Shown here in pieces: positions 6,280-25,191 of a stretch of DNA of 30,188 nt. A program made the position numbers and the translations under genes. The DNA is from a virus. The notes under the pieces are model-generated. The model saw nothing but the letters and a program-made list of their open reading frames with translations. It had not been told where the DNA came from and searched no databases. Each line of letters begins with the position of its first letter. The stretch's first letter is position 1. The DNA lies in IMG/VR virus record IMGVR_UViG_3300032241_000776, positions 1-30,188 of that record. One strand, given 5' to 3'.

Positions 6280-6714
6280 TTACAGAAAGTGTAACATTTC
6301 TTTGGGTTTTACAAAAGCATCTGGATTGTGTTCCGTGTATTCCCACCAAAGAAATTGATTCGTAGCTAAGTACTTACGGTCTTTTAGTAAATTAATGTTT
6401 TCAGGGTGTCCATAAATATTAGGATCAGACACTGACCACAGCACAATGCCCGGTTTGCTTTCGCTCCAAGCTAAATGCTGAAAGAAACTATCTATTCCGA
6501 TCCAAGTGCGGCACTCTTTAATAAGCTGTCGCAGCTCATTCATTGGCAAATTCTTCCGAAAATCAGGCACTAGCTGTTTTTCCCCTTCTACGCCAATTTG
6601 AACGACATGTTCAATTTTTGCCAATTCTTGTACAAGTTCACTCCAATATGGATAGTTTTTGGGGTTTTCTGTACCTTTTAGCAAGGGCTTAGCAAAAGGG
6701 TGGATCAGGATCAT
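6280..6714 (-). CDS. GT9-type glycosyltransferase C-terminal domain (standalone)
   Basis: The 144-residue protein looks like the C-terminal, sugar-nucleotide-binding Rossmann half of a family 9 (heptosyltransferase-like) glycosyltransferase. It begins MILIHPFAKPL and YPYWSELVQEL, then VVQIGVEGEK, LIKECRTWIGIDSFFQHLAW and GIVLWSVSDPNIYGHPEN. The N-terminal half is absent here, but a matching segment ends the upstream gene (6711-7676). The ATG overlaps that gene's stop as ATGA, so a stoichiometric pair is likely. Expected role: glycosyl transfer from a nucleotide sugar to a glycan or protein. Donor and acceptor are unknown. Confidence 0.7.
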   Translation of the reverse strand: MILIHPFAKPLLKGTENPKNYPYWSELVQELAKIEHVVQIGVEGEKQLVPDFRKNLPMNELRQLIKECRTWIGIDSFFQHLAWSESKPGIVLWSVSDPNIYGHPENINLLKDRKYLATNQFLWWEYTEHNPDAFVKPKEMLHFL

Positions 6715-7676
6715 AAATAGAGCTTTCTATATGCGTTTTCTAAACTATCAGTCCATTTCCACTGATCCATCTTGGCATAAATATTCCAAGGCTCTATGTC
6801 CCCGAATAGGTATTGCGCTTCTGCAATCGATCGACCCGGAATAACATCTGGGTAACAAGTGAATACAAGAGGATTGGCAATATCACGCAAAATGCGACTA
6901 AAAACGATATGATCGCCAAGCCCACAATTAAGAACCACAATAGTATTGTTTCTATAAGCGAGGAAATTGCGAAAAATAAATTCATCATGTTCATATAATT
7001 CTTTTTTGTTTTCACTTCTAATGCCGCCTTCTGGGTTTTTTAAATGCCAAGAATTAGCATTTGGCACAACTATAACAGCATACCCTTTTTGATATAAACC
7101 GTATGTAAATAGCGTTTCTTCCCTATGGGCTACCCTAGAAAGCCCTAAATTGTAATCATGAACACCAGCACGATATAAAAATGAACAATGTAAATGTTCT
7201 ACAAAATCAGATTTTTTAATGTAATCCCATTGAATATTTGGTTCTATATCTATGTGTTTAATCTTTCCCGCAGAATTTACTTGTTTTAATGGAGCAGTTA
7301 ATATTGAACCGCCAACAGCACCCACTTTAGGAACTTCTGTAGCATAGGTATAAAGTTGTTCTAAAACATTAGGCTCTGGAATGCAATCATCATCTACCCG
7401 CCAAACCCATTCATAGCCCATTGTATTGGCTATTTGATGGATATGATGTTGTCCCTTTTTGGGAGCAAAAACTACTTCCCAGTTAATTTTTTTAGCATCT
7501 ATTATTTGAAATAAATGCTGATAAATAAATTCTTTTCTAAGGTCTATCGGCTCATTATTGTCATCAAATAAAATAATCTTATCGGGTAATTTAGTTTGAT
7601 TAATTACCGCATTTAATACCATTGGTAAAGTCGTAAAATACCGCCCTCTTGTAGCTATTGAGCAGAGTATTTGCAT
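6711..7676 (-). CDS. GT2 glycosyltransferase fused to a GT9-type N-terminal domain
   Basis: The 321-residue protein has two parts. Residues 1-235 form a GT-A fold glycosyltransferase 2 domain, with the start MQILCSIATRGRY, INQTKLPDKIILFDD, the metal-binding DXD-like RVDDDC (95-97) and SWHL near its end. Residues 244-321 begin NTIVVLNCGLGDHIVFSRILRDI, which resembles the N-terminal Rossmann start of GT9 enzymes (GxGD motif at 252-255). The missing second half of that GT9 fold is the next gene. Its start lies 22 nt inside the preceding gene. Function: probable sugar transfer in a phage-encoded glycosylation pathway. Confidence 0.75.
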   Translation of the reverse strand: MQILCSIATRGRYFTTLPMVLNAVINQTKLPDKIILFDDNNEPIDLRKEFIYQHLFQIIDAKKINWEVVFAPKKGQHHIHQIANTMGYEWVWRVDDDCIPEPNVLEQLYTYATEVPKVGAVGGSILTAPLKQVNSAGKIKHIDIEPNIQWDYIKKSDFVEHLHCSFLYRAGVHDYNLGLSRVAHREETLFTYGLYQKGYAVIVVPNANSWHLKNPEGGIRSENKKELYEHDEFIFRNFLAYRNNTIVVLNCGLGDHIVFSRILRDIANPLVFTCYPDVIPGRSIAEAQYLFGDIEPWNIYAKMDQWKWTDSLENAYRKLYL

Positions 7677-8926
7677 AGCATTAAATTAGATAGATTAAGA
7701 GTATTTAATGGCTCAGGTTTTAATGAACAAATACCGGAATGGTTAATGTATTCAAATTCAAAGCCTTTAAAGTGTGATTCATTTAAATTATGCAATTTAT
7801 GATGTTCGCCCCAAAAACCTTTTGGTTCATTCCAAGGCACGGAAATTAAAAGTCTGTTGCAATGTTTTTTTAATTTTTCAATTATTTCTAATCCGTTATC
7901 TAAATGCTCTATAACTTCAAAAGCGATAATAGTATCGTAATAAGTAAAATTAAAATTATTAATGTCTGCACTAATAAAAGTGTTACGATCTCGCCATCCT
8001 TGCTCTTTAGCAACATTAATAATAATCGGATCATAATCAATTCCAAGATAATTAATGTTATCGGGGAAAAATTGACAACCATAACCAGTAGAGCATCCTA
8101 TTTCTAATATAGATAATCCTTGATAATTTTGTCTTGCCCAATTATATCGAGCAGATTCTCTTGGAAATACCGGATCACCTTTTAAAAATACGGCTCTTTC
8201 ATAGTTATTTGATAATAAATAACGGTAATGGTCAAGATTATATTTTTTAGCTAGTTTTAAAGAATTTTTATAAAACACATCATCGTAATCAGATACTAAA
8301 TTTTTATCGTGAACCGTTCCTTCGCCCTTATGGTATATAGGAAATTCGCCTGTAAATTGATTAATACCCCAATGTTTATCAAAAACCTCTAATACTTTAA
8401 ATCCGGCTTTTTCGGCTTCTATAGAAAATTCAGTATCTTCACCGCCGCCAACACCATATTCTTCATTTAATAAACCAATAGTGTCAAAGACTTTTTTAGC
8501 AATCATGACACAAAAGAAAATAGCAAATTCTTTACCCGCTGGAGGCGAATAAGTTTTAATAATGCAAGAAATGCCGCAATCAGGGTCTTGAAATGGAGTA
8601 TTTAATATATTTAACCAATCGTTTTGATTTTGCTGTAAAAGTAAATTATCGTTATTCAATAAAATAATTTTGTCGCAAGTAGCCATTTTTATACCTACAT
8701 TAGTAGCTTTAGAAAAACCTAAAGCCTCTGAGTATTGTGCTATTAAACAATGAGGGAAATTGGTACTAACATAATTTAAATACCTTATCGTATTATCAGT
8801 ACAGCCATTTGCAACAACAATAAGCTGTATGTCATTTACATCGGTATATTTAAGTATAGATTCAATGCAAGGTTTTAAATATTTCTCGCAATTGTTATAT
8901 GTAGGTATAACTACACTATATTTCAT
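7655..8926 (-). CDS. Bifunctional GT2 glycosyltransferase / SAM-dependent methyltransferase
   Basis: Residues 1-235 are a GT2 domain: KYSVVIPTYNN, VVANGCTDNT (nucleotide-binding), LLNND (91-93, DXD equivalent) and GGGEDTEFSIEAEKAGF (acceptor/base region). Residues 255-423 are a class I methyltransferase: ILEIGCSTGYG (motif I, 273-283), YLGIDYDP (motif II Asp), and FEVIEHL (336-342) followed by LLISVPW. Such fusions can add and then methylate a sugar. The start ATG is preceded by AAGGAT. It is the first gene of the sugar cluster after the tail fibres, consistent with modifying virion or host glycans (inference). Confidence 0.87.
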   Translation of the reverse strand: MKYSVVIPTYNNCEKYLKPCIESILKYTDVNDIQLIVVANGCTDNTIRYLNYVSTNFPHCLIAQYSEALGFSKATNVGIKMATCDKIILLNNDNLLLQQNQNDWLNILNTPFQDPDCGISCIIKTYSPPAGKEFAIFFCVMIAKKVFDTIGLLNEEYGVGGGEDTEFSIEAEKAGFKVLEVFDKHWGINQFTGEFPIYHKGEGTVHDKNLVSDYDDVFYKNSLKLAKKYNLDHYRYLLSNNYERAVFLKGDPVFPRESARYNWARQNYQGLSILEIGCSTGYGCQFFPDNINYLGIDYDPIIINVAKEQGWRDRNTFISADINNFNFTYYDTIIAFEVIEHLDNGLEIIEKLKKHCNRLLISVPWNEPKGFWGEHHKLHNLNESHFKGFEFEYINHSGICSLKPEPLNTLNLSNLMLCKYSAQ

Positions 8927-8972: not shown

Positions 8973-10025
8973 TTAAGCTGTGTAGCTCCCTGAGCTTGTG
9001 AATTTAATAATGGTATTGCTACCTGAAGTTGTAATAGTTGGCGAACCTGTATAAGTTGCGCTGTAAGATGCTGTAGGCACACTTAAGATTACAACTCCAG
9101 AGCCTCCAGAACCTCCTGTTGGAGTTCCTGCGCCTCCGCCGCCGCCGCCAGTATTGGCAGTCCCACTTGTTCCGCTTGAGCTTGTGCCACCTGCGCCGCC
9201 ACCGCCTAAACCACCAGCCGCACCTCCAGCACCAGTATTTGCCGCTCCACCACCTCCGCCAGCATAATAAGTTGCTGTGCCAGTAATAGAAGATGAAACT
9301 CCAATACCGCCTGCTCCTGCGGCTGAAGATGAACCATTAGCTCCTACTGCACCTGCGCCTCCACCACCAGCACAACCATAATAAGGCGCACCGCTTGTTG
9401 AAGCATCGCCACCAGCATAACCTTGACCAGCAGTTCCGCTTGCAATTACTGTTCCGCCGTTTCCTTGACCGCCACCAGAACCTCCTGATGTTGGATTTGT
9501 AGCAGAATATCCACCTCCAGCACCACCAGCAATGCAGGTTATTGTAGAAATTCCACTTCCAGAAAATGTTGTGTTATTTCCAGAATAGCCATTGTAATGA
9601 CCGCTATTTCCACCAGCGCCGCCTGCACCAATAGTTACGGTATAAGTAGTTCCTGAAACAAAAGATACAGTTCCAGTTACTAAGCCACCAGCACCGCCGC
9701 CACCGCCGTTGTTATAACCACCACCACCGCCTCCAGCAACAACTAAATAAGATGCCGCATAACCTGATGCTAATGTAATCCATCCGCCATTTACATAAAC
9801 TTCATAAACTAAAGTTGATGAATTCCATCGTTGCATACCATTTACAGGTGAACTTGGTCGTTGTGCAGTTGTTCCTGTAGGAATAGCTAAAGCACCTGTC
9901 ACATTAGCCATGCTTACTAAACCACTTGTAGCTTGTAGCTCTAAAGTTCCTGAATTATCAGGAGTAGAAGTTAAACCTGATATACCTGATATTGCGCCTG
10001 AATCAGCTTTAATTATGGTTGTCAT
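8973..10025 (-). CDS. Glycine-rich tail fibre tip protein, paralogue 1
   Basis: The 350-residue protein has an N-terminal region (1-90) with the phage-fibre motif GTTAQRPSSPVNGMQRWN and a WITLA end. A glycine-rich domain (about 92-315) begins SYLVVAGGGGGG and contains TYTVTIGAGGAGG, with many Gly runs compatible with packed polyglycine-II helices. A conserved C-terminus reads SGVVILSVPTASYS and ends TSSGSYTA. Gly-rich domains of this sort form the receptor-binding tips of several phage adhesins. Two close paralogues lie just upstream (10022 and 11980). The start overlaps the stop of paralogue 2 by 4 nt. Confidence 0.8.
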   Translation of the reverse strand: MTTIIKADSGAISGISGLTSTPDNSGTLELQATSGLVSMANVTGALAIPTGTTAQRPSSPVNGMQRWNSSTLVYEVYVNGGWITLASGYAASYLVVAGGGGGGYNNGGGGGAGGLVTGTVSFVSGTTYTVTIGAGGAGGNSGHYNGYSGNNTTFSGSGISTITCIAGGAGGGYSATNPTSGGSGGGQGNGGTVIASGTAGQGYAGGDASTSGAPYYGCAGGGGAGAVGANGSSSAAGAGGIGVSSSITGTATYYAGGGGGAANTGAGGAAGGLGGGGAGGTSSSGTSGTANTGGGGGGAGTPTGGSGGSGVVILSVPTASYSATYTGSPTITTSGSNTIIKFTSSGSYTA

Positions 10026-11089
10026 GCTGTATAGCTTCCTGAAGAAGTGAATTGCATAATAGTATTTGAACCGCTTGTAGTAACTGTTGGGCTACCAGTA
10101 GTTGTGCCTGAATAGTTAGCAGTTGGTACGGATATGATTACGATGCCTGAACCGCCTGTTCCGCTTGTTCCAGCAGATATGCCTTGTCCTCCACCACCGC
10201 CTCCAGTATTTGTTCCGCCATTTCCTGCTGTGTTTCCTGCACCATTAACTATATTTCCATTTCCACCAGAATTTAATGCGCTTCCGCCACCAGTTCCAGC
10301 AACTCCACCACTAGCCAATCCACTACCACCACCGCCACCACCTATACCGCCATTACCAGCAGTAACGCCAGCATTATTTCCATATTGAACACCACCACCA
10401 CCACCACCGCACCAATATAAAGTTGAGCCTGTAATAGTAGAAGATGCTCCAGCGCCTCCTGCTCCTGCAGTGCTTGAATTTACAGCATTATTACCAACAG
10501 AACCAGCGCCACCGCCGCCAGCAGATTGATAAGGATTTGTATTTAAAACAGTATTGTTTCCGCCAGCATATCCTTGCCCTGAAGTTCCGCTTCCGCCATT
10601 TGCACTTGAACCCCAACCGCCACCTCCGCCTGAACCACCATTTTGACCATTAGAAGCAGAAGAAGCGTTGTATTGACCTCCAGCACCACCGCCTATTGCA
10701 GTTAATGTTAATGCTGTTGTATTTGAACCATTAGCAGGTGTTGAATTGTTTACACTTCCTGTTCCTCCAGCACCAATAGAAAATGTATAAACAGTATTTG
10801 AAGTTAAGCTAACAGTTCCAGTCAATAAACCTCCACCACCACCACCACCAGCACCTCCACCGCCTCCGCCGCCAGCAACCAATAGGTATGATGCTGTATA
10901 TGTTTGAGATGATAAAGTTACCCAAGCAATGCCGCTATATACCTCTGTTTGATTTGTAGTGGTATTAAAACGCATAGCACCACTAGCAGGACTTGCAGGT
11001 CTTTGTGCTGTAGTGCCTTGTGGCAAGTCAATACTTTGAGTAGCAGTTGAAGCTGCTATTCCTGTTGAGCCAGCGATAGTTATGCTCAT
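10022..11089 (-). CDS. Glycine-rich tail fibre tip protein, paralogue 2
   Basis: A 355-residue protein with the same plan as its neighbours: N-terminal SITIAGSTGIAASTATQSI, then GTTAQRPASPASGAMRFN and the SYLLVAGGGGGGG transition. A long Gly-rich domain follows (TYTFSIGAGGTGS motif near its start), and the C-terminus is SGIVIISVPTANYSG ending TSSGSYTA. N- and C-terminal parts match paralogue 1 much better than the central loops, as expected for a diversifying receptor-binding domain. The plus-strand shadow frames here are Pro-rich artefacts of Gly codons. Confidence 0.8.
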   Translation of the reverse strand: MSITIAGSTGIAASTATQSIDLPQGTTAQRPASPASGAMRFNTTTNQTEVYSGIAWVTLSSQTYTASYLLVAGGGGGGGAGGGGGGGLLTGTVSLTSNTVYTFSIGAGGTGSVNNSTPANGSNTTALTLTAIGGGAGGQYNASSASNGQNGGSGGGGGWGSSANGGSGTSGQGYAGGNNTVLNTNPYQSAGGGGAGSVGNNAVNSSTAGAGGAGASSTITGSTLYWCGGGGGGVQYGNNAGVTAGNGGIGGGGGGSGLASGGVAGTGGGSALNSGGNGNIVNGAGNTAGNGGTNTGGGGGGQGISAGTSGTGGSGIVIISVPTANYSGTTTGSPTVTTSGSNTIMQFTSSGSYTA

Positions 11090-11097
11090 TTTAAGCC

Positions 11098-11475
11098 TTA
11101 AACTGTGATTTCAACCCAAGCCTTTGTAGGCTCATCCCAACGATAAGGCTTACCATCTGTAGGCATAGGTGTTGGGGCTTCCCATGTCCATGTAGATTGA
11201 TTTAATGTCCAGCTTGCATAAGGCTGTGGAGCATAAAATACATCGTGCTGTGCATCGTATGTGTAGCCAATACCAGCGTAATTACCACGCAAAGCAGGAG
11301 TAGTAGCAGAAGTATCTTCTACGCCTTGAGCATTGTAGTGTTTGCCGCCACGAGTGTTGTAAGAAGTTTGAATCCAAGCACCAGGGCTTGAATCAACAAA
11401 AGTCTTAAAAAAGTCGGCTTCAGCAACAATAACACTGACCACTTTGCCATCTACGATTTTCGCATAATGCGACAT
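11098..11475 (-). CDS. Fibre-associated conserved phage protein (125 aa)
   Basis: The start at 11475 (MSHYAKIVDGKVVSVIVAEADFF) is chosen because AAGGAG sits 7 nt upstream, whereas an upstream in-frame start would overlap the HNH gene and add an unlikely hydrophobic leader. The 125 residues are Trp/Tyr/Pro-rich (SYNTRGGKHYNAQGVED, GNYAGIGYTYDAQHDVFYAPQP, TWTWEAPTPMPTDGKPYRWDEPT). This is a pattern I associate with a conserved aquatic-phage protein found beside tail fibres. A fibre or baseplate-associated virion protein or fibre chaperone is likely. The biochemical role is unknown. Confidence 0.75.
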   Translation of the reverse strand: MSHYAKIVDGKVVSVIVAEADFFKTFVDSSPGAWIQTSYNTRGGKHYNAQGVEDTSATTPALRGNYAGIGYTYDAQHDVFYAPQPYASWTLNQSTWTWEAPTPMPTDGKPYRWDEPTKAWVEITV

Positions 11476-11485
11476 ATAAATCTCC

Positions 11486-11965
11486 TTAAAAATTTCTAGC
11501 AAACTGCTTATGATATAAATCTCTTGCTTCGGTAGCAACCAAATCAGCAAGCTCTAAATCTTCAAAACTACCAATGTACTTCCTGTTACCATTTACCATC
11601 AAACTAACAACCCAGTTACGCTTCCATTCTGGATTCTTTGTTGGTGGCTGCAAGTAAACATTTTTATACGGGGATTTACTTGTGCTTGTATGCTTACGGT
11701 TTAAGCAATTTTGCTGTTGAGTAACTTCCCGTAAATTCTCAATTGCGTTGTTTTCTCTGTTTCCATCAATATGGTCAATACATGACGGTAAATAACCATG
11801 ATTCCATAAATAAACCATGCGATGCAAAGCATAGACTTTGCCGTCAACAGTAATGCGTTTGTAGCGTTTTTTACCAGCTTCAATAACAGCAGATTTACCA
11901 TTTTTATGGATAAGCGCACCATTATTGTAGTCAAATAGGCTTTTGAGGAGTTCTTGAGTAACCAT
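11486..11965 (-). CDS. HNH homing endonuclease with AP2-like C-terminus
   Basis: The 159-residue protein carries an HNH motif, LHRMVYLWNHG (H48), then CIDHIDGNRENNAIENLR (D64-H65 and the Asn-rich helix), then QNCLNR. This is the signature of freestanding phage HNH homing endonucleases. The C-terminal part (SPYKNVYL, WVVSLMVNGNRKYIGSFEDLELA) resembles an AP2-type DNA-binding domain. It should nick or cut a specific sequence and drive copying of the gene. It sits between a Gly-rich fibre gene and the 125-aa gene and interrupts an otherwise continuous structural series. Confidence 0.88.
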   Translation of the reverse strand: MVTQELLKSLFDYNNGALIHKNGKSAVIEAGKKRYKRITVDGKVYALHRMVYLWNHGYLPSCIDHIDGNRENNAIENLREVTQQQNCLNRKHTSTSKSPYKNVYLQPPTKNPEWKRNWVVSLMVNGNRKYIGSFEDLELADLVATEARDLYHKQFARNF

Positions 11966-11979
11966 TTATTTCTCCTTTG

Positions 11980-12969
11980 TTAAGCCGTGTAGCTTCCGCT
12001 ACTTGTGTAAGTCAAAATTGTATTACTGCCTGAAGTTGTTACAGTTGGCGAACCTGTAGTTGTGCCTGAATATAAAAAAGTTGGTATAGAAAGAATAACT
12101 ACGCCGCTACCGCCTGCACCTGAAGTTACTGTTACAGTAGTTTGACCAACGCCTGAAGCGCCGCCTCCTCCTCCTGTATTGGCTGTGCCATTTGTTCCAT
12201 TAGATTGATTAGCTCCACCAGCACCACCACCTCCAGCACCTCCTGCTGCTGCGCTTACTGTTGAATTTGCTCCTGCACCACCGCCTCCAGCATAATAAAC
12301 AGCAGAACCTGTAATAGATGAAGCTAATCCTGCTCCACCTGCTCCTGCTGTTGCGCCACCTGCACCACCAACAGCACCAGCACCACCGCCACCAGCTGCT
12401 AAAAGTCCTGTAGAACTACCGCCAGCATTTCCTTGACCGCTAGTTCCTGAACCGCCAGTTCCACTTCCTCCAGCGGCAACATAAGCACCATAACCGCCAC
12501 CGCCTGAACCACCATTGCCACCTTGACCAAGAGGTGAAGCACCATTTACACAAGCGCCATAACCGCCTCCAAGTGCAGTAGCAAAACTTGAAAAAGAAGA
12601 ATTACTACCTGTATTGCCATTTGAAAGTCCGCTTGAAGTGGTAACGCCAGCACCTCCAGCCCCTACAGTAATAGCATAATTATTTCCAGCAATTAAAGTT
12701 GCAGAACCAGTTAAATAACCTCCTGCACCACCACCAGCCGCACCGCCGCCTGTATTTCCACCTGCACTTCCTCCTGAGCCACCTCCAGCAACAACTAAAT
12801 AATTAATAATATAAGGAAGCTGGCTAGTTAAAGCTAATGTGCCAGTAGCATTTGGAACGGTAACAGTATTTGTGCCACCTTGAGTTTTAAAAGCAAGATT
12901 ACCTGAAGTATCAGGCGCTACTGTAAATGCAGTAGTTGTTGTTGTTCCTGCGGTTATTGTTGTTGCCAT
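11980..12969 (-). CDS. Glycine-rich tail fibre tip protein, paralogue 3
   Basis: A 329-residue relative of the two Gly-rich proteins downstream. Its N-terminus differs (MATTITAGTTTTTAFTVAPDTSG), with no QRPxSP segment, then NYLVVAGGGSGGS, a Gly-rich domain with NYAITVGAGGAG, and the shared C-terminus SGVVILSIPTFLYSG ending YTSSGSYTA. The distinct N-terminus suggests a different attachment point or partner. It follows the collagen-like fibre by 1 nt, so it may form or cap the tip of that fibre (inference). The HNH gene separates it from its paralogues. Confidence 0.78.
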   Translation of the reverse strand: MATTITAGTTTTTAFTVAPDTSGNLAFKTQGGTNTVTVPNATGTLALTSQLPYIINYLVVAGGGSGGSAGGNTGGGAAGGGAGGYLTGSATLIAGNNYAITVGAGGAGVTTSSGLSNGNTGSNSSFSSFATALGGGYGACVNGASPLGQGGNGGSGGGGYGAYVAAGGSGTGGSGTSGQGNAGGSSTGLLAAGGGGAGAVGGAGGATAGAGGAGLASSITGSAVYYAGGGGAGANSTVSAAAGGAGGGGAGGANQSNGTNGTANTGGGGGASGVGQTTVTVTSGAGGSGVVILSIPTFLYSGTTTGSPTVTTSGSNTILTYTSSGSYTA

Positions 12970-12970
12970 A

Positions 12971-15961
12971 TTAGATTACCACCCATCTTTGACCAGCCGA
13001 AACAGTTACCGTTATTCCACTATTGATTGTAATAGCTCCTACTGAAAAAGCGTTTTGCCCAGTAGGAATTGTATAGTTAGAACTTATTGTTGTTCCATTA
13101 ATCATAAATCCATTAGTAGAAACTTGAACAGGCGCATCTAATTGACCTGTTGCAGGATTATAGTTATAGGCAGAATTTACATTAGCGGTACTAAAAGTTC
13201 CTGATGTAGAACTATTAAATACAGGATAGTAAGTTGCATTAGTGCTAGTTGGAGTTACGGTAATGGTTGATCCTGCGCCAGAATATCCGCTAAATCCGCT
13301 ATACCCAGATATACCTGAGCCGCTATAACCGGAAATTCCTGATCCTGAGTAACCAGAAATACCAGATCCGCTATAGCCGGAAATACCGGAATATCCAGAA
13401 ATGCCAGCAGAACCGTTTGCGCCACTATAACCAGAATATCCAGAAACACCAGCAGAACCGTTTGTACCGCTATAACCGCTAATACCGGAAAAGCCTGAAT
13501 AACCTGAGATTCCGCTATACCCTGATATTCCAATAAATCCGCTATAGCCAGAAATTCCACTAAAGCCCGAATAGCCGCTAATACCACTTCCGGAATATCC
13601 AGAAATTCCTGAAAAACCGCTAAACCCAGATATTCCACTAAATCCTGAATAGCCTGAAATGCCTGAATATCCGCTTATACCGCTATATCCTGACTGAGTA
13701 TATGTAACTTGAGCCGCAGAAACAATTACTCCCGGAGTTACAGGTACAGTTGGTGTTGTTTGTGCTCCAGTAGTAACAATAGAAATACTGGTAGTGCTTA
13801 CCGCCCAAAGTAATTGAACATAATCACCAGCATTCAGTTTTAAAGTATATGGGGTAACAGCAATTAAATATCCGTTAGTACCGCCTTGTGCTCTAGGAAT
13901 ATTAAAAATACTATTACTATCTGCAATATCATTTCCATTTACTCTAATCCAAATATCAACATTATCATTTCCACTACCAGTAGCTGTATTGGTAAATTGA
14001 ACAGAGTATTGAATATCGTAAACACCAGCATTAGCAAAAGTAATTCTATTGCCAGAAGTAATGCTTACACCAGTACTATTTGGATCAGTATTTCCAATAT
14101 TAATTACATAAGATGCAGTAGTGCTTGAAGCAGTTTGATTGGTTGTGTCATAGAATGATCCCCAATTAGCAATAATACCGCCAGCACCTGCCGAACCAGA
14201 ATATCCTGATAATCCGCTGTATCCGCTATAACCAGACAATCCTAAGCCAGAATATCCGCTAAAACCTGAATATCCAGAAACACCGCTACCTGAGTAACCA
14301 CTAATTCCGCTAAAGCCAGAATATCCTGAAATACCACTAAAGCCGGAATAACCAGAAATGCCGCTATATCCTGAAAATCCGCTAATTCCAATAGTTCCAT
14401 TTATACCTGAATAACCAGAAAGTCCAGAATAGCCTGATATTCCAGAATAACCGGATATACCGCTAAATCCTGAAATACCGCTAAACCCAGATATTCCACT
14501 AATTCCTGAATAACCTGAAATGCCTGAATATCCGCTAATGCCGCTTTGAGCAGTGCCATTTAATCCTGAATATCCGCTAATGCCACTATATCCAGATTTT
14601 CCAGAATAGCCGCTTATACCTGATGTACCGCTATATCCTGAAATACCAGAATAACCTGAAATCCCGCTATAGCCAGATAAGCCTAAACCTGAATATCCTG
14701 ATATACCAGAAAAGCCGCTGTAACCAGAAATACCGCTTCCAGAATAACCAGAAGTTCCACTATAACCACTAATGCCAGAATAGCCCGATTTACCACTATA
14801 TCCAGAGATTCCGCTATATCCGGAAGAACCAATACCGCTGTATCCTGAAAATCCTGAATAACCAGAAAAGCCTACAATTTGACCAGCGTTATACCAAGCA
14901 GTTCCGTTCCAAACATAAAGATCACCGTTAGAATCTACAATATAAGCATCGTTTGGATTGTTGCCAGTTAAAGGTAAATCTGCTGGTGTAGGGACTGATC
15001 CTTTAATGTTAATTGAAGTTCCCTGCTGTCCACTATATCCAGAAAATCCAGATATACCACTATATCCAGAATAGCCGGATGTGCTTAATCCTGAATATCC
15101 GGAAATGCCGCTGTAACCAGAAATGCCGCTATAACCGCTAAATCCGGAAAAACCGCTATAACCAGAATAACCAGAAGTTCCTACACCAGAAAATTGTGTC
15201 CATGTAATAGGGGTAACACCTATTGTTCCGCTTTCAGGAGCAATTACAACCCATCCTGTACCATGATTAATAGTGCCGTATTCAATAAAAGTAAATGCAC
15301 CCGGCACTTCTGACCAAACAGACATATCTGCTGAACGAGTCCATGCTCCAGAATCAGCAACATAAATACCGTTTTCAGCAGAATTATTTTGGTTTTTAAC
15401 GCAAACACGATCTCCGGCTAAAGTTGTATATCCATCTATAGTTTGTAAATCAGATAAAGTAATGTTGCCGCCTAAAGGGGTAGTTGCAACTTGACATTCT
15501 GCTTTAGCTACCATACCTTGCGCTATAGAATCGGCATAGGCTTTATTAACTAAATCATTTTGATTTACCGGTAAAGTATCTACTTGACCTGTTACCGTAA
15601 ACATATTTTGGAAAACGGCAGAATATAATCCTTCTTCCAATCCTTCAATTTGAACAAATGCACTACCAGTTCCGGCAGTCATTAAATTAACTACAAAATC
15701 ACCAATATTCCAAGCTCTAGGAACTGTTCCTTCTTCACCGCGCGTTACTGTCCATACATCGCCTGTGACATTAGTAACATAAACAATTTCGTTAATTAAA
15801 CTATTAGTTGCATTAACAATTGTTGCAGTAAAAGCTTGCCCAGTTGTTGGGTTTGGAAAATTAATAGACGTACCGCTTGCAACGGTAATAGTAGTGTCAG
15901 TGCTACTTACAGGCAGTGCAAGTGCGGTTTGGGCTTGATTCGAGAATAATAGTATTGACAT
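12971..15961 (-). CDS. Collagen-like long tail fibre with C1q/TNF-like domain
   Basis: A 996-residue fibre. Residues 1-104 are an N-terminal attachment domain shared with the fibre encoded at 16631-17689. Residues 125-260 are a known fibre module (VKNQNNSAENGIYVADSGAWTR). Gly-X-Ser triplets occupy 263-311, 364-592 and 757-897, with X mostly Tyr, Ile, Phe or Leu, interrupted by a SINIKGSVPTPADLP module (316-362). Residues 597-756 resemble a C1q/TNF jelly roll (NRITFANAGVYDIQYSVQF, LNAGDYVQLLW). The last 100 residues form a separate tip. The triplets would make a trimeric collagen-like shaft, although Pro is almost absent from them. Confidence 0.88.
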   Translation of the reverse strand: MSILLFSNQAQTALALPVSSTDTTITVASGTSINFPNPTTGQAFTATIVNATNSLINEIVYVTNVTGDVWTVTRGEEGTVPRAWNIGDFVVNLMTAGTGSAFVQIEGLEEGLYSAVFQNMFTVTGQVDTLPVNQNDLVNKAYADSIAQGMVAKAECQVATTPLGGNITLSDLQTIDGYTTLAGDRVCVKNQNNSAENGIYVADSGAWTRSADMSVWSEVPGAFTFIEYGTINHGTGWVVIAPESGTIGVTPITWTQFSGVGTSGYSGYSGFSGFSGYSGISGYSGISGYSGLSTSGYSGYSGISGFSGYSGQQGTSINIKGSVPTPADLPLTGNNPNDAYIVDSNGDLYVWNGTAWYNAGQIVGFSGYSGFSGYSGIGSSGYSGISGYSGKSGYSGISGYSGTSGYSGSGISGYSGFSGISGYSGLGLSGYSGISGYSGISGYSGTSGISGYSGKSGYSGISGYSGLNGTAQSGISGYSGISGYSGISGISGFSGISGFSGISGYSGISGYSGLSGYSGINGTIGISGFSGYSGISGYSGFSGISGYSGFSGISGYSGSGVSGYSGFSGYSGLGLSGYSGYSGLSGYSGSAGAGGIIANWGSFYDTTNQTASSTTASYVINIGNTDPNSTGVSITSGNRITFANAGVYDIQYSVQFTNTATGSGNDNVDIWIRVNGNDIADSNSIFNIPRAQGGTNGYLIAVTPYTLKLNAGDYVQLLWAVSTTSISIVTTGAQTTPTVPVTPGVIVSAAQVTYTQSGYSGISGYSGISGYSGFSGISGFSGFSGISGYSGSGISGYSGFSGISGYSGFIGISGYSGISGYSGFSGISGYSGTNGSAGVSGYSGYSGANGSAGISGYSGISGYSGSGISGYSGSGISGYSGSGISGYSGFSGYSGAGSTITVTPTSTNATYYPVFNSSTSGTFSTANVNSAYNYNPATGQLDAPVQVSTNGFMINGTTISSNYTIPTGQNAFSVGAITINSGITVTVSAGQRWVVI
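13271..13693 (-). repeat. Collagen-like Gly-X-Ser repeat block C
   Basis: This encodes residues 757-897 of the fibre, a run of GYS/GIS/GFS triplets with interruptions such as TNGSAGV and ANGSAGI. DNA units of 9-18 bp vary mainly at third codon positions. Confidence 0.85.
14186..14872 (-). repeat. Collagen-like Gly-X-Ser repeat block B (longest)
   Basis: This encodes residues 364-592 with two main interruptions (LNGTAQS and INGTIGI). Synonymous variation between units suggests selection on the peptide and a brake on homologous slippage. Confidence 0.85.
15029..15175 (-). repeat. Collagen-like Gly-X-Ser repeat block A
   Basis: This encodes residues 263-311, the first and shortest triplet block, between the fibre module at 125-260 and the small globular module at 316-362. 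Confidence 0.8.
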
Positions 15962-24484: not shown

Positions 24485-25191
24485 CTAAAGTAAAGTCTTG
24501 CTTTTTATTGCTCTAATTAAATGCCTTTGGCGATATTCTGACGCATCTTCAAATTTACCGCCAACTTCTTTCATCAGTTCATCAAAATGTTTATAGGTTA
24601 TGAAATCTAAGATACTATGGATGATTCCTTGACTTTCTTGCCAATATTTTCTTTCTTGGTCAATATCGGTAAGCCATTCTGATACTCCATACAACCCAAG
24701 GATGTAAGCTCCCAATTTCGCAGCGCACCTGCCATCTCCAAAAAGGAATTCTTTAAATCCTTCGGTGCGACTTTGGAGATTGCTGTAAAAAACACTAAAG
24801 AACTTAATACCTCTGCTTCTTCATCTTCGTTTAAAAATTCTTTTTTTACTGCCACCTCAAAAGGAATGGTTTCCCATCCTTTTTCGGTATTTATGATTAC
24901 ATTAGTTAAGCGAATAATTTCGTTAACCAAACCAAATTTTACACCGCCTGCGCCGTCCCAATTTCCTGCTTTTGTTGCTATAAATTTCAAAGCAGCATAC
25001 GCTAATTGGGGCGCCGACAACGCTAAATGGGCTTGGCTAACTCCATCAAAACATTGACTAAAAACTTTGCCTAATTCTGAATAAAATTGTTCAAATACAG
25101 ATCGACTAATAGAAGTGGAGTGAATATAAGCTGTTCCATTTTCATCAGTCTGCACCTGCATCACAAGGGACAGATTACGATCGATTTTCAA
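24485..25191 (-). CDS. Frameshifted tail assembly chaperone product (probable -1 frameshift)
   Basis: Reading 25191-24751 in frame and then shifting -1 at T-TTA-AAG (24757-24751) continues without a stop to 24485. The result is a 235-residue product made of 147 residues of the chaperone plus 88 new ones. The extension contains GLYGVSEWLTDIDQERKYW and FDELMKEVGGKFEDASEYRQRHLIRAI and has no start codon with a good ribosome site. A frameshifted chaperone pair just before the tape measure is a hallmark of long-tailed phages (G/GT, E/E'). The geometry and heptamer are visible; expression is inferred. Confidence 0.75.
24607..25191 (-). CDS. Tail assembly chaperone (unshifted product)
   Basis: A 194-residue protein: MKIDRNLSLVMQVQTDENGTAYIHSTSISRSVFEQFYSELGK, then AGGVKFGLVNEIIRLTNVI, WETIPFEVAV, EDEEAEVLSSLVFFTAISKVAPKDLK and LTSLGCMEYQNGL. 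This pattern recurs in myovirus proteins lying between tube and tape measure. It should bind the tape measure protein during tail assembly. Residues after 147 are replaced in the frameshifted form. The start is 14 nt past the tube gene. Confidence 0.8.
   Translation of the reverse strand: MKIDRNLSLVMQVQTDENGTAYIHSTSISRSVFEQFYSELGKVFSQCFDGVSQAHLALSAPQLAYAALKFIATKAGNWDGAGGVKFGLVNEIIRLTNVIINTEKGWETIPFEVAVKKEFLNEDEEAEVLSSLVFFTAISKVAPKDLKNSFLEMAGALRNWELTSLGCMEYQNGLPILTKKENIGKKVKESSIVS
24751..24757 (-). promoter_or_regulatory. -1 ribosomal frameshift site T TTA AAG
   Basis: The heptamer fits X XXY YYZ and is in phase with the chaperone frame (GAT TTA AAG). Both the 0 and -1 frames are open downstream (to 24607 and 24485). 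An SD-like AAGGA lies just upstream. I did not find a clear downstream pseudoknot by eye. Confidence 0.72.

Follow-up and report, generated by a model that had tools for sequence, protein, structure and literature searches.

The tail assembly chaperones G and GT of phage lambda arise through a -1 frameshift that is conserved in most long-tailed phages (reviewed in PMC5009743). Assays of X_XXZ_ZZN motifs and shorter tetramers in Escherichia coli place U_UUU with the tetramers that shift readily, provided a stimulator lies downstream (Sharma et al. 2014, PMC4066793), and the rule for tetramer sites is a U_UUY core with a hairpin 4-10 nt downstream (PMC4066793). A degenerate relative of the usual heptamers, G_UUU_UUU, has been predicted as the -1 site of the insect flavivirus NAKV, where it was proposed as an exception to the conserved -1 site (PMC4342338).

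Here we describe a locus in the IMG/VR virus record IMGVR_UViG_3300032241_000776 (30,188 nt, analysed whole and called the window below), at which a -1 slip of the ribosome very probably gives a phage two forms of a protein that helps to build its tail. We hold with good confidence that the locus encodes a tail assembly chaperone pair of the lambda G/GT kind, with -1 programmed ribosomal frameshifting at a U run at 24793-24787 followed by a hairpin. As in lambda, the locus lies just before the tape measure gene, its two ORFs overlap in a -1 relation, and a minor fusion is predicted from an in-phase slippery run. Unlike lambda G/GT, it belongs to the families phrog_11810 and phrog_14324, uses a U-run site with a downstream hairpin, and has a mismatched first heptamer base in the window. 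It shares its degenerate heptamer with NAKV, although there the ribosomes are eukaryotic and the genes unrelated (PMC4342338); the E. coli assays (PMC4066793) differ in that their stimulators came from IS3/IS911 and not from the window hairpin, and E. coli may not be the host of the lake phages. The system is of an already known kind, with the degenerate first base as a mildly unusual detail.

All features of the locus are encoded on the minus strand. A tail sheath gene (phrog_205, 26957-25662), which marks the virus as a contractile-tailed phage, is followed by a probable tail tube gene (phrog_6566, 25649-25206; its identity as tube comes from its position after the sheath only), by the chaperone-like ORF (25191-24607), and by a tape measure gene (24475-22931) that starts about 10 nt past the -1 stop and encodes 514 aa with a C-terminal phage tail lysozyme domain. 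A chaperone-like gene between the tube and sheath genes and the tape measure gene is the order of lambda G/GT-like loci, and the tail genes of cultured relatives have the same spacing. The lysozyme domain is PF18013, and 514 aa is short for a tape measure protein; the equivalent gene in cultured relatives is variously annotated as lytic transglycosylase, lysis protein, virion protein or tape measure protein. Elsewhere on the same strand, near the tail fibre genes, lie a glycosyltransferase group at 6280-8926 (GT9-like, GT2, and a fused GT2 and methyltransferase) and three apparently paralogous Gly_rich_2-domain genes at 8973-12969, which adjoin a 996-aa collagen-repeat tail fibre (12971-15961).

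The 0-frame ORF begins with TTG and encodes 194 aa, and its match to phrog_11810, a family of unknown function, spans the length of the product. Among the 81 aligned sequences described below, the position equivalent to 25191 carries TTG in 34, GTG in 28 and ATG in 16, so non-ATG starts are common for this ORF. The -1 frame is closed upstream by a TGA at 24823-24821, which confines the slip site to the interval between 24823 and 24607, and is open from just past that codon to the stop at 24487-24485. The sequence-only reading, which had proposed a slip at T_TTA_AAG (24757-24751), was correct that this frame stays open across the heptamer to 24485 and that a -1 shift gives products of 194 and 235 aa. 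Read after a slip at the U run, the extension would comprise 100 codons and a TAG (24787-24485), to give a fusion of 235 aa; a phrog_14324 match lies in its C-terminal part, so that both ORFs are recognised elsewhere, as unnamed families.

The two-frame layout is widespread. In IMG/VR, 80 near relatives with 66-90% identity were found (81 aligned sequences with the window). The -1 ORF is kept in all 80, and with few exceptions its stop lies a short way ahead of the next long ORF. It is also present at about 29-36% identity in six cultured-phage loci, with recorded hosts Actinobacillus, Escherichia, Klebsiella, Shewanella and Yersinia, and in all 55 distinct sequences among 80 further, more distant loci found with an alignment of the relatives (two are shorter, cut near a contig end). 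As in lambda G/GT, the second ORF overlaps the first in the -1 frame, has no conserved start of its own and is conserved in relatives. A MAG labelled Mucilaginibacter matched on one contig and was not trusted as a host assignment, and the G-type relative L146 (see below for first-base types) gave no match to an E. coli chromosome or plasmid. Two overlapping frames with no convincing start codon for the second could in principle be one gene broken by an assembly indel or by decay. The relatives refute such a frame error, leaving it a negligible probability: the same layout recurs in well over 100 loci, cultured phages included, and purifying selection acts on both frames. In the window clade (the window and its nearest relatives, L002, L003 and L018), pN/pS in the -1-only part is 0.00-0.04, that is, strong purifying selection, which indicates that the extension is still in use despite the degenerate heptamer.

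The sequence-only reading also held that the -1 ORF has no convincing start, and this was confirmed: there is no ATG near the junction, and the first possible starts, TTG at 24715 and TTG at 24694, have no Shine-Dalgarno sequence. Translation of the second ORF alone from one of these codons or from ATG 24574, with no fusion, would nevertheless find some favour in a TTG at -1 codon 24 in 36 of 51 distinct relatives. We reject an independent start as most improbable, since no internal start in the window has a Shine-Dalgarno sequence, and the first start varies between relatives and in one of them, L004, comes no earlier than codon 71; such a start would also leave an invariant TTT TTT, and the suppression of synonymous change that sets in at the U run, without reason.

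The slip site itself had been misplaced, while the broader proposal of a chaperone-like ORF fused by a conserved -1 frameshift just before the tape measure gene stands. TTTAAAG is indeed present on the minus strand at 24757-24751, in the phase T_TTA_AAG of the 25191-24607 ORF. It occurs, however, in only 4 of the 81 aligned sequences (the window clade) and is missing from 77 of the 80 IMG/VR relatives, which keep both ORFs; comparison of homologous loci, the check proposed with that reading, thus decides against TTTAAAG and for the U run. Its presence does not exceed chance. The minus-strand genes of the AT-rich window contain 73 in-phase X_XXY_YYZ heptamers in 8459 codons, about one in 116, three of them TTTAAAG, and when the chaperone gene was shuffled synonymously with codon usage preserved, at least one in-phase heptamer fell in the overlap in 85% of shuffles and TTTAAAG in 12%. 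Nor did folding of the sequence downstream, also listed as a check in that reading, point to a stimulatory structure: the 70 and 100 nt that follow fold no better than shuffles (z +0.5 and +0.3). On conservation, on its position in a hairpin loop and on the want of structure downstream, TTTAAAG was rejected as the conserved site. The -1 stop at 24823 disqualifies two other in-phase candidates located upstream of it, TTTAAAC at 24835 and AAAAAAA at 24847.

The proposed site, G_TTT_TTT followed by A (24793-24787), lies 36 nt upstream of T_TTA_AAG and is orthologous to a conserved T_TTT_TTT. T_TTT_TTT is found in all near relatives outside the window clade, whose four members have G_TTT_TTT, and in the six cultured-phage loci; among the 55 distinct distant sequences it is found in 50, with G_TTT_TTT in the other 5. 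IMG/VR was also searched with patterns that left the first base free and permitted TTC as well as TTT at each Phe codon. All 220 matched sequences have TTT twice; 207 of them begin the run with T, 12 with G and 1 with C. An enterobacterial clade, separate from that of the window, has G_TTT_TTT at 9 loci and C_TTT_TTT at 1; in these ten sequences the overlap lacks any further in-phase heptamer, and the -1 ORF is intact in each, though in one it is cut by the sequence end. The single C_TTT_TTT case is relative L178 (3220-3249), with its -1 ORF intact. The canonical X_XXY_YYZ form with identical X bases fits most of the family (U_UUU_UUU) and not the run in the window (G_UUU_UUU); the Z_ZZN form with a stimulator does fit the window, with T_TTT at 24790-24787 and, 6 nt further on, a core helix from 24780. 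The enterobacterial clade has G_UUU_UUU with no other heptamer and keeps its -1 ORF under selection. All this makes 24793-24787 the best candidate for the slip, which would probably proceed by A-site re-pairing on U_UUU with the hairpin as stimulator.

Counted as seen against expected on a minimum spanning tree that links 56 distinct sequences, synonymous change is suppressed at the run and in the hairpin arms beyond it. The codon before the run (GTT) has 1 change against 12.6 expected and TTT TTT has 0 against 16; the codons of the hairpin 5' arm (GCA ATC TCC) have 3 against 43 and those of the 3' arm (TTG GAG) 0 against 24, while the loop codons GTT GCA CCG, at 41 against 48, are near expectation. 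Dual coding alone is expected to explain part of the suppression in the arms, including that at TCC and in the 3' arm, which codes for GDG.

In the window the hairpin is formed by a 5' arm at 24783-24771 (GC.AUCUCCAAAG) and a 3' arm at 24743-24731 (UUUUGGAGAU.GC); the outer GC pair step at 24783 is separated from the run by 3 nt and the core helix by 6 nt (fold z -2.9). The family form is GC.AUCUCCAA(G/A)G paired with U(C/U)UUGGAGAU.GC, and pairing holds in 98.5% of cells. A double change from G-C to A-U occurred in the window clade and separately in L066. This covariation is modest: one pair changed on both sides was equalled in 189 of 500 shuffles, although the score was reached by only 2 of 500. 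One or more pairs are broken in L076, L077 and L079, of which L076 and L079 are the most distant lake relatives, and no shared hairpin was found in the enterobacterial group. That group usually has a GAGG, a Shine-Dalgarno-like stimulator upstream of the run, in 74 of 80 sequences, versus 6 of 38 distinct lake sequences, and such a conserved stimulator was rejected for the latter on this count; the GAGG of the window, 17 nt from the run, is at the edge of the range.

Besides the altered hairpins of the most distant lake relatives and the lack of a shared one in the enterobacterial group, the history of the window clade counts against the U run: its first U was lost, so that tandem cognate re-pairing is no longer possible, and among distinct lake sequences TTTAAAG is confined to this clade, both changes falling on one branch. 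T_TTA_AAG might then be the slip site, by itself or as a second site to which slippage passed once the change from U to G had weakened the run; it is in phase with an open -1 frame and includes A_AAG, which of all tetramers shifts most readily in E. coli (PMC4066793). We regard this as unlikely. The heptamer is not conserved in the family, it sits in an unconstrained apical loop, so that a ribosome there would already have unwound the hairpin, and the structure downstream is no better than chance. In the window clade, moreover, none of the 12 codons between the U run and TTTAAAG has changed, whereas 35 of 133 have done so upstream (35-37 synonymous changes in comparisons with the window); the stretch looks frozen, as it would be if dual coding persisted there. 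A relocated site is possible and not needed, as the separate enterobacterial clade has the same G with no substitute heptamer and an intact -1 ORF.

The run could also act during transcription, RNA polymerase slipping on it to give a subpopulation of mRNA with an added base, and many relatives do have a run of 8 T. The window, however, has a G and then only 6 T, which is short for slippage by RNA polymerase, and a TTT TTT fixed in phase, with a hairpin at ribosomal spacing, fits ribosomal slippage better; we consider the transcriptional route very unlikely.

From the conserved two-frame architecture, the U run, the constraint that begins at it, the conserved hairpin and the selection on the -1 frame, we infer that ribosomal frameshifting occurs at the U run. 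Ribosomes on the 194-aa ORF would read GUG UUU UUU ACA, and would meet the hairpin, 3-6 nt on (AUCUCCAAAG with UUUUGGAGAU), while UUU occupies both the P and the A site. The A-site tRNA-Phe would then, in a minority of passages, re-pair one base back on UUU, a cognate pairing on the U_UUU tetramer, while the P-site tRNA-Phe would re-pair on GUU with a first-position mismatch or be detached. Reading would then continue with UAC AGC AAU to give the 235-aa fusion (135 + 100 residues), at an efficiency that may be lower in the window than in T-type relatives. Residues 136-147 of the fusion would come from the -1 frame. With the conserved run, the onset of suppression and the hairpin all at 24793-24731, the junction is expected after residue 135 (VFF|YSNLQSR), instead of at residue 147 (DLK|EFLFGDGR) as the sequence-only reading had it; the tryptic peptide expected from the U-run slip is EFLNEDEEAEVLSSLVFFYSNLQSR, and that from a TTTAAAG slip is DLKEFLFGDGR.

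The tape measure protein, whose gene comes next, would be the client of both the 0-frame product and the scarcer fusion, a chaperone role suggested mainly by gene order and by the frameshift itself. The AlphaFold2 model of the 0-frame product is confident over most of its length, with a mean pLDDT of 84.5 and low values only at residues 1-3 and 183-194. Several of the viral matches in a fold search were weak ones to annotated tail assembly chaperones (E 0.03-1); the Pfam search gave no significant match for the chaperone, and the PDB fold search none.

The first base of the run (U in most, G in two separate clades, C in few) offers a tentative and rather doubtful further reading, in which the family tunes the ratio of chaperone to fusion by this base alone, so that P-site mismatch works as a natural rheostat; T_TTA_AAG may then be a second site gained by the window clade, with a second fusion isoform as its product. 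Our findings show that picking a slippery heptamer on form alone can mislead to the wrong site, and the natural U, G and C variants provide a test set for the weight of P-site pairing in bacterial -1 frameshifting. No joined gene is annotated at the locus in any of the six cultured-phage records, and the fusion product has thus been missed across a widespread myovirus family.
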